A DNA stretch of 64,000 bases from Bacteroidales bacterium. GTDB lineage: Bacteria > Bacteroidota > Bacteroidia > Bacteroidales > UBA10428. Shown here in pieces: positions 59,717 to 63,826 of this stretch. The translations under genes and the position numbers were made by a program. The stretch is from the NCBI GenBank assembly GCA_016928305.1, contig JAFGKY010000012.1, positions 36,291-100,290 of the forward strand. Reading direction: 5' to 3'. Every line of letters begins with the position of its first letter. Position 1 is the stretch's first letter. A model generated the notes under the pieces. That model had not been told where the DNA came from. It searched no databases and was given only the letters and a program-made list of their open reading frames with translations.

Positions 59717-60223
59717 TTAATTATAATCAACACCCAGGGATTCCATCAGCTTCTTACGGGTAAAAAAGATGCGGCTTTTCACCGTCCCTATTTTTAAACC
59801 AAGATTATCCGCAATTTCTTTGTATTTATATCCCCGAAGATGCATCTTAAACGGAACCTTGAAATCATCATCAAGTCGTTCAATATGATTTTGTATTTCT
59901 CTAACCGAAACAGCCGAATCGGGACTTTCTGCAGACGATTCGCGGTTCAGATTGAGGTAATACAGGTCATCGGTATGATCAAAGGTCGTATTGCTTTTTA
60001 TTGCTTTCCGGTAATTGTTAATGAACGTATTTTTCATAATGGTAAAGGTCCATGCCTTCAGATTCGAATCATCGGCAAACTTGTCACGAAACGATATGGC
60101 CTTTAAAAAAGTTTCCTGCAACAAATCCTTTGCATCCTCCCTGTTCGTTGTCAGGCTCAAAGCAAACCTTTCCAGACTATCGCTGAGGTTTGTCAACTGG
60201 TAATTGAATTCTATTGCTGTCAT
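59717..60223 (-). CDS. RNA polymerase sigma factor (ECF, sigma-70 family)
   Basis: NREDAKDLLQETFLKAISFRDKF (region 2), IADNLGLKIGTVKSRIFFTRKKLME (region 4). Confidence 0.95.
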   Translation of the reverse strand: MTAIEFNYQLTNLSDSLERFALSLTTNREDAKDLLQETFLKAISFRDKFADDSNLKAWTFTIMKNTFINNYRKAIKSNTTFDHTDDLYYLNLNRESSAESPDSAVSVREIQNHIERLDDDFKVPFKMHLRGYKYKEIADNLGLKIGTVKSRIFFTRKKLMESLGVDYN

Positions 60224-60264
60224 ATCGATGGATTTTTGTGTTAATATTGTTTTATTTTGTTTAA

Positions 60265-60296
60265 CAAAATTAAATGATTTTTAAACACTATACAAA
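60265..60296 (-). promoter_or_regulatory. ECF sigma gene promoter TTTG-N20-TAATTTTG
   Basis: CAAAATTA (60265-60272) and CAAA (60293-60296) on +; exact spacing; predicted 5' UTR about 40 nt. Confidence 0.65.
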
Positions 60297-60347: not shown

Positions 60348-60623
60348 TTTCTGTATAACCCATCATTAAGGGATATTTAAAGAATATATTTATATATTCT
60401 AAATTTATTATAAATTACAATATCGGATAAAAAAGTATTATTTTAGTGTTTAATTATTAATAAAAATCTATAAACATATTAACCAGAAAGAGCGAACGTT
60501 GAAATAATGCAGCAGCGGAATGTTGGAATGTATAGAAAGGGGATAGATCGAATGGAGGAGAAATACGACGGATAGAGAAATAAGAAACCAGGAGCTTACA
60601 AATAACAGCGTAAAACCGGGAAA

Positions 60624-61514
60624 TTACGACTTGCCTATCTTTTCAAGCTCTTCGATAAAGTGTAACGGAGAGATAATGACGGTTGCATGGGAAGGAAAAT
60701 CGTGCCGGTGATTTTCTGTCTGCAGTCCTGAAACGAACAGGGGTTTATATCCTGTCTTTTCGCCCAGCATTTCGATATAGGATTGTATGTTGCGCTTATT
60801 TATCGAAGAGACAAATGCCGTTATCAGCGCGTCGAATGACTTAATCCGCATGATCTCTACAACATCGGACAAGGGTACGGACTGTCCGAGGTAAATGATC
60901 TGATGGCCACGTTTTTTTGCCAGGTAAGCAAAGAAAAGAATGCCCAGTTCGTGCCATTCCCCTTCGGGAAGGAAGAATAAAAATTGTTTTGAATCAGCTT
61001 TCCTGTCATTTATCATGCTGTCAATGGCCACGTAAATTTTTTGCCGCATCAGACCGGAAACAAAATGCTCCTGCGCGGGATTTATATTACCCGTCTGCCA
61101 CATCAACCCGATTTTTACCAGAAACGGATATATGATCTTGATAATGGTATCTTCAAAACCAAACTGAAGGATCGACCGCGCCAGTATTCTTTCAAATTTA
61201 ACCTCATCGTATTCAATCATGGCAATGGTCAGTGCCTCTATCTGACTCTGATCGTCAGATATATGCTGCATAATGGCGTTGATCTTATCGTTGATCTCCT
61301 TCTGGTTGAATTGAGCGATCTTGCTGATTTTAATCCCATGGCGATTAAGGATGGAGATATTCATCAGTTTCTTCAGCTCACTGTCACAGTATGTACGGAT
61401 ATTGGTGGTAGTCCTATGCGGTTCGATCAGCCCGTAACGTTTTTCCCATATACGTATGGTATGTGCCTTTATCCCCGACAGTCTTTCGAGATCACGAATG
61501 GAATAAGCTCCCAT
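60624..61514 (-). CDS. MerR-family regulator with B12-binding domain (CarH/LitR-like)
   Basis: MerR HTH SIRDLERLSGIKAHTIRIWEKRYGLIEPHRT; WQTGNINPAQEH (W-x9-EH); EWHELG (ExHxxG). Confidence 0.93.
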   Translation of the reverse strand: MGAYSIRDLERLSGIKAHTIRIWEKRYGLIEPHRTTTNIRTYCDSELKKLMNISILNRHGIKISKIAQFNQKEINDKINAIMQHISDDQSQIEALTIAMIEYDEVKFERILARSILQFGFEDTIIKIIYPFLVKIGLMWQTGNINPAQEHFVSGLMRQKIYVAIDSMINDRKADSKQFLFFLPEGEWHELGILFFAYLAKKRGHQIIYLGQSVPLSDVVEIMRIKSFDALITAFVSSINKRNIQSYIEMLGEKTGYKPLFVSGLQTENHRHDFPSHATVIISPLHFIEELEKIGKS

Positions 61515-61593: not shown

Positions 61594-61622
61594 GTCGTGC
61601 AAGTCATGCAAGTCATGCAGTC
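61594..61622. repeat. 9-bp array GTCATGCAA
   Basis: GTCGTGCAA GTCATGCAA GTCATGCAG; opposite orientation to the array at 62411. Confidence 0.75.
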
Positions 61623-61660
61623 TAAAAGTCCGAATACCGATTACCGATCACCTTAACTCC

Positions 61661-61740
61661 CTCGTTACTCGTCACTCGTCACTTTCTCTTGTCACTTGTC
61701 ACTTGTCACTCGTCACTTCTTCTCGTCACTCGTCACTTCT
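61661..61740. repeat. Heptamer array CTCGTCA/CTTGTCA
   Basis: CTCGTTA CTCGTCA CTCGTCA ... CTTGTCA CTTGTCA CTCGTCA ...; contains the O-methyltransferase stop (61733-61735). Confidence 0.8.
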
Positions 61741-62368
61741 TTCTTATCAACATCAGTCCGTCCCTCACAGGCAATATCAGTTTCTCAACCCGGTTGTCAT
61801 TTTTAACAAATTCGTTGAATGCCACAATGCCCCGGGTTTCCTTATCCTGCGACCTGCTGATTACCTTACCTCCCCATAAAACATTGTCAGCCACAATATA
61901 TCCACCCGGTTTGACTTTCTCAAAGACCAACTGATAATAATCAAGGTAATGCTGTTTATCGGCATCGATAAAAACAAGGTCAAACCGAATTTTCAATGTT
62001 GGTATGATGTTGCCGGCATCACCAAAATGCAGTACAATGTTATCTTTTAATCCGGCCCTCCGGATATATTTATCGATCACCGGTTGTAGTTCATCATTAA
62101 TTTCAATGGTATGAAGCTTTCCGTCCGGCTTCATTCCTTTTGCCAGGCATATTGCTGAATATCCGGTATAAGTGCCGACCTCAAGTATAGCTGCAGGCTG
62201 TATCATCCGGCTGATAAATTCAAGCAGCCTACCCTGCATATGCCCGGAAACCATCCTCGGATACAGCACCTTGCTGTGGGTTTCGCGGTATAACTCCGAA
62301 AGCAAGGGATCTTCGGGAGAAGAATAAGAGGTAATGTATTCCAGGAGCTGATCATCTATGGTTAACAT
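61733..62368 (-). CDS. Class I SAM-dependent O-methyltransferase
   Basis: ILEVGTYTGYSAICLAKGM, FDLVFIDADKQHYLDYY, IVADNVLWGGKV. Confidence 0.95.
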   Translation of the reverse strand: MLTIDDQLLEYITSYSSPEDPLLSELYRETHSKVLYPRMVSGHMQGRLLEFISRMIQPAAILEVGTYTGYSAICLAKGMKPDGKLHTIEINDELQPVIDKYIRRAGLKDNIVLHFGDAGNIIPTLKIRFDLVFIDADKQHYLDYYQLVFEKVKPGGYIVADNVLWGGKVISRSQDKETRGIVAFNEFVKNDNRVEKLILPVRDGLMLIRKK

Positions 62369-62377
62369 AATAATACA

Positions 62378-62407
62378 AGTAGTTAGTAGTTAGTAGTTAG
62401 TAGTCAG
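62378..62407. repeat. Heptamer array AGTAGTT
   Basis: AGTAGTT x3 then AGTAGTC. Confidence 0.8.
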
Positions 62408-62410
62408 ACT

Positions 62411-62554
62411 GCATGACTGGCATGACTGGCATGACTGGCATGACTTGCATGACTGGCATGACTTGCATGACTTGCATGACTGGCATGACTTGCATGACTG
62501 GCATGACTGGCATGACTGGCATGACTTGCATGACTGGCATGACTGGCATGACCA
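62411..62554. repeat. Sixteen-unit 9-bp array GCATGACT(G/T)
   Basis: 15 GCATGACTG/GCATGACTT units plus terminal GCATGACCA, with no indels. Confidence 0.95.
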
Positions 62555-62557
62555 ACA

Positions 62558-62602
62558 ATCATAACCATCATAACAATTACAACAATTACAACAATTACAA
62601 CC
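62558..62602. repeat. Five-unit 9-bp array ATCATAACC/ATTACAACA
   Basis: ATCATAACC ATCATAACA ATTACAACA ATTACAACA ATTACAACC. Confidence 0.85.
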
Positions 62603-62605
62603 TCT

Positions 62606-63826
62606 TTAATTATAAATGAGATACGACAACTTACCCTCCTCAAATATCTCATTTGCCACTTCCAGAATTTCATCAGCGGTTATGGCATTGATTTTCCGGC
62701 TGATCTCACTGAAGGAATCCATTCTGTTGAATACCAGCATACTCTTGGCCATGGAAAGCATAAGGCTTTCATAATTCTCGGAAGATATTGCAATCTGACC
62801 CAGGAGTTGCCTTTTTGCCTTGCCAAGGACAGCATCTTTCAGTCTTCTTTCCCGGGTCAGCTGTAATTCTTTAAGAATAAGATGAATGCACTTATCAACC
62901 GATGTCTTATCGGTCCCAAAATAGATCGTGATGTTACCGGTATCCGAATACGTGGTGTATAGCGAATCAATGGTATAGGTGTATCCCTTTTTCTCCCGCA
63001 GCACAAGGTTCAGGCGTGAATTCAGCCCCGGCCCCCCCAGGTAGTTATTCAATAAATGGAGTGCAAGCCGCCTGCCGCTTTTAAAATCATAAGCAATATT
63101 TCCCATAATACAGTGGGTCTGGTATGTTCCGCGCTGAGCGATGTGTCTGGAAGAGCGGTAGGGATATGCTGAAGGATAGCACCGGCCGGGATTTTTGAAT
63201 GCATAGCACCCGAAATATTTTTCAAACAGGTAAACAAGCTTTTTAAACGAGATATTGCCTATGGAAGACACCACCATCTGATCCGTTGAATAATTCTGTT
63301 GTATAAAATCAATCAGGCTTTCCCTTGTAAATTCTCTGAGCCTGTTTTCTTCTCCGAGGATATTTCGCGCGAGTGAGTTCCCGTCATAGATCTGTTCTTC
63401 AAATTCATCAAAAATCAACTCCGACGGAGAGTCCTTATACGAGTTGATCTCATCATAAATAATTTCCTTTTCCTTTTGCACTTCACCGGCAGGGAATGAT
63501 GAATTGAAAGCAATATCACTCATTAATTCCATGGCACGTGCATGGTACTGTGTAAAAAACGTACTGTGAATACAGATTTCTTCCTTGGTTGTATATGCAT
63601 TTATCTCACCACCAACGTCTTCCATACGGTTGAGTATATGCAGGGATTTTCTCTTCCGTGTACCTTTGAACAGCATGTGTTCCAGGAGGTGTGCCACACC
63701 ATGTTGTTCAGGGGTTTCATCACGTGATCCCGTATTGATCATGAGTCCGCAATGCGCCACCAGGCTTTTGGCAGGGTAATGAATCAACCTTATGCCGTTG
63801 GGTAAAACATGTGTCTGAAATGTCAT
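62606..63826 (-). CDS. M16 family zinc peptidase
   Basis: HGVAHLLEHMLFKGTRKR (HxxEH), GGEINAYTTKEEICIHSTFF. Start moved to MTFQTHVLPNGIRL. Confidence 0.95.
   Translation of the reverse strand: MTFQTHVLPNGIRLIHYPAKSLVAHCGLMINTGSRDETPEQHGVAHLLEHMLFKGTRKRKSLHILNRMEDVGGEINAYTTKEEICIHSTFFTQYHARAMELMSDIAFNSSFPAGEVQKEKEIIYDEINSYKDSPSELIFDEFEEQIYDGNSLARNILGEENRLREFTRESLIDFIQQNYSTDQMVVSSIGNISFKKLVYLFEKYFGCYAFKNPGRCYPSAYPYRSSRHIAQRGTYQTHCIMGNIAYDFKSGRRLALHLLNNYLGGPGLNSRLNLVLREKKGYTYTIDSLYTTYSDTGNITIYFGTDKTSVDKCIHLILKELQLTRERRLKDAVLGKAKRQLLGQIAISSENYESLMLSMAKSMLVFNRMDSFSEISRKINAITADEILEVANEIFEEGKLSYLIYN

Follow-up and report, generated by a model that had tools for sequence, protein, structure and literature searches.

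A candidate cobalamin-dependent, light-released repressor paired with an ECF sigma gene in Bacteroidales

Does the CarH/LitR-type MerR regulator encoded in the window (the whole 64,000-nucleotide stretch of Bacteroidales bacterium DNA analyzed here) answer to cobalamin and light, and if so, which genes would it control? The first-pass annotation had cautiously proposed a repressor that responds to light by way of B12 and whose pocket diverges in its back half, and this proposal is supported by a fold and pocket that match CarH and CtMerR, by B12-related genes in the organism's own genome, by runs of carotenoid (crt) and photolyase genes in relatives, and by a repeat at the promoter of the neighboring ECF sigma gene. 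With a probability of roughly two in three for the reading as a whole, we propose that the protein is a class-I-like CarH/LitR regulator, acting as an adenosylcobalamin (AdoCbl)-dependent, light-released repressor of an ECF cascade via a conserved site. Table 1 lists the coordinates of the features discussed.

Table 1. Features of the regulator gene, its predicted cobalamin pocket and the neighboring ECF sigma promoter (positions in the window).
Feature	Position	Strand	Evidence or remark
CarH/LitR-type MerR regulator	60624..61514	-	ORF of 296 aa, ATG start; sequence, Pfam and fold matches
MerR HTH, residues 4-69	61308..61505	-	Pfam MerR_1, E 2.5e-12
Four-helix B12 cap, residues 92-162	61029..61241	-	Pfam B12-binding_2, E 4.3e-11; helices in AlphaFold model
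W139 codon (W of Wx9EH)	61098..61100	-	Invariant, 106/106
E149-H150 codons (EH of Wx9EH)	61065..61070	-	E149 102/106, H150 106/106
ExHxxG, residues 186-191 (EWHELG); H188 is the predicted lower axial cobalt ligand	60942..60959	-	H188 102/106; aligns with Thermus H177
A233-F-V235, place of SxT/V motif (Ser lost, V kept)	60810..60818	-	Alignment
S262-G263, place of GG motif (second Gly kept)	60726..60731	-	Alignment
ECF sigma factor, 168 aa, predicted direct target	59717..60223	-	Pfam Sigma70_r2 and r4_2
-33 element TTTG, predicted primary-sigma promoter	60293..60296	-	20 bp before -7 element
-7 element TAATTTTG (TAnnTTTG consensus)	60265..60272	-	Same layout in relatives
Proximal operator-like inverted repeat TGTTTAA-N16-TTAAACA	60258..60287		14/14; overlaps -7 box of ECF promoter
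Distal operator-like inverted repeat TGTTTA-N18-TAAACA	60447..60476		13/14 arm bases; 189 bp upstream of proximal copy

The regulator ORF is full length, with homologue alignments that start at residue 1. Its top match by both sequence (E about 5e-20) and fold is CarH of Thermus thermophilus (PDB 5C8D/E/F), with which it shares the MerR HTH, the four-helix cap, the Rossmann domain and the Wx9EH and ExHxxG motifs, with about 23% of residues identical in the structural alignment. The Rossmann B12-binding half scores below the Pfam cut-off (23.1 versus 32.1 bits) but is nonetheless present in the AlphaFold model (mean pLDDT 92.5, from 77 sequences), where it was matched to 5C8D and 8C31. The best PDB matches of this model are all light-sensing B12 proteins: full-length Thermus CarH ranks first (5c8d, E 1.5e-16), many entries for its cobalamin domain give a TMt of 0.82-0.84, CtMerR (8jbs/8jbt) gives 0.77, and photocobilin (8j2w/8j2x) is also among the top matches. 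Full-length structural matches show a TMq of about 0.6 and a large rmsd, probably owing to a different HTH hinge. The same AdoB12-type architecture characterizes class I LitR/CarH proteins (Bacillus, Streptomyces, Myxococcus), as does a link to carotenoid and photolyase genes, seen here in relatives. Counting against a CarH assignment, the regulator reaches 107 bits with the NCBIfam CarH equivalog NF052513, for which the cut-off is 400.

To describe the pocket, residues were aligned to Thermus CarH, as read from plasmid pTT27, and conservation was counted over 106 distinct Bacteroidota homologues picked by their similarity to the regulator protein. Wx9EH and EWHELG had been reported as exact motif matches, and so they are; their near-invariance across the homologues (E186 in 104/106, G191 in 79/106; Table 1) means that they are not there by chance. 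In the alignment, W139, E149-H150 and E186-x-H188 fall on W131, E141-H142 and E175-x-H177 of Thermus CarH. In CarH, the Trp and Glu of Wx9EH contact the adenosyl group (PMC10442372).

The later motifs were also described as divergent, which holds for the Ser and the first Gly, both lost relative to the SxV and GG of Thermus CarH; the proposed TAF was placed one residue early, the aligned residues being A233-F-V235 instead of T232-A-F, with S262-G263 at the place of GG. The full SxT/V...GG tail-binding motif is thus missing from the regulator, which counts against the CarH reading. Across the homologues, the position of A233 holds Ser in 60/106, Tyr in 14 and Ala in 12, that of S262 holds Ser in 45, Thr in 34, Ala in 11 and Gly in 7, and the second Gly is kept in 98/106. 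Since the Ser and first-Gly positions vary clade-wide, we regard the divergence as a property of the family and not as the decay of one gene.

A further difference from Thermus CarH, absent from the first-pass annotation, lies directly after W139, where the regulator has Gln (Q140, Gln in 83/106) in place of His132. In Thermus CarH this His binds cobalt in the light, and an H132A change blocks monomerisation (PMC10442372). The lack of such a bis-His residue, which is common and not universal in CarH, counts against the light-released repressor. CtMerR of Chloracidobacterium thermophilum (PDB 8JBS/8JBT), a MerR-type B12 photoreceptor that likewise lacks the bis-His residue, offers a helpful parallel: it carries Arg at the place of His132, yet its tetramers come apart into monomers under light (PMC11796333). 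It is 15-16% identical to the regulator.

The loss of the Ser and first Gly would also suit a repressor like Myxococcus xanthus CarA, in which the pocket is a relic, B12 plays no part and a partner protein effects release. CarA has the same domain layout and a bipartite inverted-repeat operator near the promoter, and it retains the B12 motif while working without B12 (PMC9304148). CarA, however, requires the antirepressor CarS and lacks the Trp of Wx9EH (PMC9304148), the very residue that is invariant in the 106 homologues here, and no conserved partner gene adjoins the regulator. Three Saprospiraceae loci (L079, L080, L091) have neither the ECF neighbor nor the site described below, and in the two that were aligned, L079 and L091, the pocket has decayed (E149V with H188Q). 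This coincidence of a decayed pocket with a lost ECF neighbor and operator, to which L088 is an exception, looks as if ligand and output were coupled, and we judge a B12-independent mode of action very improbable.

If the protein is indeed a B12-dependent light sensor, its neighborhood suggests what it might control. The ECF sigma gene directly follows the regulator gene on the same strand, and this MerR-ECF pairing recurs in 67/80 loci taken from named genomes. No anti-sigma ORF was found in the 314 bp downstream of the ECF gene, up to a PurM-like gene. In Cytophagales and Flavobacteriales loci, the MerR-ECF run extends to crtI (phytoene desaturase), crtB (phytoene synthase) and idi (a Nudix protein of the isopentenyl-diphosphate isomerase type), often to a photolyase gene, and also to crtZ and crtY (lycopene cyclase), where the crtB, idi and crtZ labels derive from homology and position and crtZ is without a Pfam hit. 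Such linkage is a feature of relatives; within the window, no carotenoid or photolyase genes lie beside the regulator. Gene order in the window's own family runs M16 peptidase, O-methyltransferase, MerR, ECF, sometimes folE, PurM-like, prfA and pyrF, with folE (GTP cyclohydrolase I) found between the ECF and PurM-like genes in six loci (L122, L131, L133, L135, L137, L138). In Pseudomonas putida, FolE and photolyase are light-induced under a class II LitR (PMC9758184). Two further observations concern the surrounding DNA. Short GTGACNAGT-type direct repeats occupy 61620-61745, within the gap that separates the O-methyltransferase gene from the start of the regulator gene, and a short tandem repeat at 62404-62673, between the O-methyltransferase and M16 peptidase genes, would read as a His-Ala-Ser run on the minus strand and is probably not a gene.

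Inspection of the intergenic region between the regulator and ECF genes reveals two copies of an operator-like inverted repeat and a predicted promoter (Table 1). Primary-sigma promoters of Bacteroidota have a -33/-7 consensus, and the TTTG, 20-bp spacer and TAATTTTG found here fit its standard layout. Because the proximal repeat covers the -7 element, a protein bound there should block RNA polymerase, from which we infer repression. In the organism's own genome, all 14 bases of the repeat are matched exactly by the proximal copy and nowhere else. Exact 6-base arms occur there at three sites; the ECF promoter accounts for two of these, and the third falls within an ORF on contig C93. The strict pattern is present in 61/79 MerR-ECF intergenic regions, against a shuffle mean of 0.22, and tolerance of a few arm mismatches raises this to 77/79. 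A scan of 1.08 Mb of loci finds the strict pattern 92 times, 75 of them before an ECF gene, where four control arm pairs give 0-2. Helical phasing of the two operators was also considered; the spacings of 62-65, 140-144, 167 and 179-213 bp are not all whole turns, and no phasing is claimed.

The design of this element differs from that of known CarH operators, which are tandem 11-bp direct repeats, within a family whose operator design is plastic (PMC9304148). Tandem repeats of the form nnnnTnnACAn were not found at the target promoter, where the conserved element is the inverted repeat, a point against the CarH reading; relative to Thermus CarH, the repeat is inverted where the other is direct, and the presumed target beside the regulator gene encodes an ECF sigma factor, the crt genes not being adjoining targets themselves. 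Such an unfamiliar layout (compare PMC9304148) could mean that some other factor binds TGTTTAA-N16-TTAAACA and that the regulator acts elsewhere, and one genome (G015) does retain the ECF gene and site with no regulator found. Both arms of the repeat, however, hold the TnnACA core of CarH half-sites, and the distribution of sites across genomes links them to the regulator.

That distribution was compared over 60 genomes, 34 with the regulator and 25 without, G015 being left out. The genomes with the regulator contain 55 exact sites in all and those without contain 5, against 4 control matches in each group; several of the 5 fall inside ORFs. Counted by genome, at least one exact site is present in 26/34 with the regulator versus 4/25 without (Fisher p about 5e-6, relatedness not corrected). 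The site also follows the presumed targets. At two loci that have lost the ECF gene (L107, L108), it lies about 30 bp before crtI, shifted to that gene beside the regulator, and in three genomes whose ECF gene is unlinked from MerR (G010, G013, G020) the ECF gene yet retains it. Taken with the arm sequence, this tracking makes binding by another factor unlikely.

Exact sites further mark genes away from the regulator. They lie 9-124 bp before crtI (G027, G011) and crtB (G014, G059). In eight genomes an exact site also closely precedes the gene of an orthologous TonB-dependent receptor, the receptors being about 49-80% identical to each other. For the organism's own orthologue, on contig C64 (L252:322-2760), the corresponding site has one mismatch and lies 49 bp from the gene start; compared by sequence with PDB and NCBIfam, this type of receptor gave no informative match and no match to BtuB. 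Exact sites were also seen in relatives upstream of fasciclin-domain proteins (L227, L230, L241, L246), which are possible regulon members, and upstream of a DUF900 hydrolase and an outer-membrane protein.

A receptor gene among the putative targets raises the alternative that the protein senses B12 status, with the AdoCbl-bound form repressing while the coenzyme is plentiful and letting go when it is scarce, and with release by light incidental. The missing bis-His residue would fit such a role, as would the organism's use of AdoCbl enzymes. The check for B12 genes that the first-pass annotation had called for turned up a PduO-type adenosyltransferase gene, two methylmalonyl-CoA mutase genes, a MetH-sized ORF with a B12 cap together with a corrinoid protein gene, and a cobalamin riboswitch directly before a TonB-type receptor gene (3611-5560 of L265) that is followed by a lipoprotein gene (L265:3342-6655, contig C56), a unit likely to be a B12 uptake operon. 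The riboswitch, however, precedes a different receptor gene from the one that bears the site, and the site-bearing receptor does not resemble BtuB. The other targets (crtI, crtB and the ECF gene of crt operons) fit light, and the protein retains Wx9EH, the motif whose Trp and Glu touch the adenosyl group in CarH (PMC10442372). On balance, we hold a B12-status sensor to be rather unlikely and prefer release by light.

How far the light-released repressor would reach in this organism is less direct. Its genome encodes a cluster on contig C144 of phytoene synthase, an idi-type Nudix protein, a carotenoid biosynthesis protein and a desaturase, and a photolyase-family gene on contig C116. No site was found before crtB, crtI or the photolyase gene in this genome, which counts against our reading, and any link of the regulator to crtB and photolyase would therefore be indirect or absent. 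A shared ECF-type promoter motif, sought upstream of crtB or photolyase in relatives, gave nothing convincing. Oxygen is needed for the full photocycle of Thermus CarH, and a haem-copper oxidase gene (COX1) was not found in the organism's own genome (94% complete with 6.8% contamination, such that single absences are weak); oxygen may accordingly be scarce, a further point against light release.

The mechanism that we propose is as follows. In the dark, the regulator would bind adenosylcobalamin with H188 below the cobalt and W139, E149 and H150 over the adenosyl group. The AdoCbl-bound protein would oligomerise and occupy both copies of TGTTTAA-N16-TTAAACA near the ECF gene, and on the proximal site it would cover the -7 box such that RNA polymerase is excluded. 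Light would break the Co-C bond and the repressor would leave the DNA. The ECF sigma factor, which has no adjacent anti-sigma gene, may then switch on photoprotective genes, the candidates for which in this organism are named by analogy with relatives, and the TonB-dependent receptor gene carrying the same site would be a second direct target.

Our literature search found no experimental study of such a B12 light sensor in Bacteroidota, where it yielded only mention of a MerR/B12 gene next to genes for zeaxanthin (PMC6974559) and a description of carotenoid induction by light for which no regulator is known (PMC7064467). We tentatively suggest, as a broader proposal that we consider somewhat less probable than its opposite, a Bacteroidota-wide B12 photoreceptor regulon that operates without the bis-His ligand, also in organisms that lack a haem-copper oxidase. 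Its signal would pass via an inverted-repeat operator to an ECF sigma relay, and the TonB-dependent receptor would be a second conserved direct target. The Bacteroidota thereby gain a concrete set of candidates for the sensor, its operator and its targets. The clade-conserved Gln at the bis-His place lets B12 photoreceptor signaling without that ligand, at low oxygen, be tested, and with the operator as a one-line pattern, any genome in the clade can be searched for members of the regulon.
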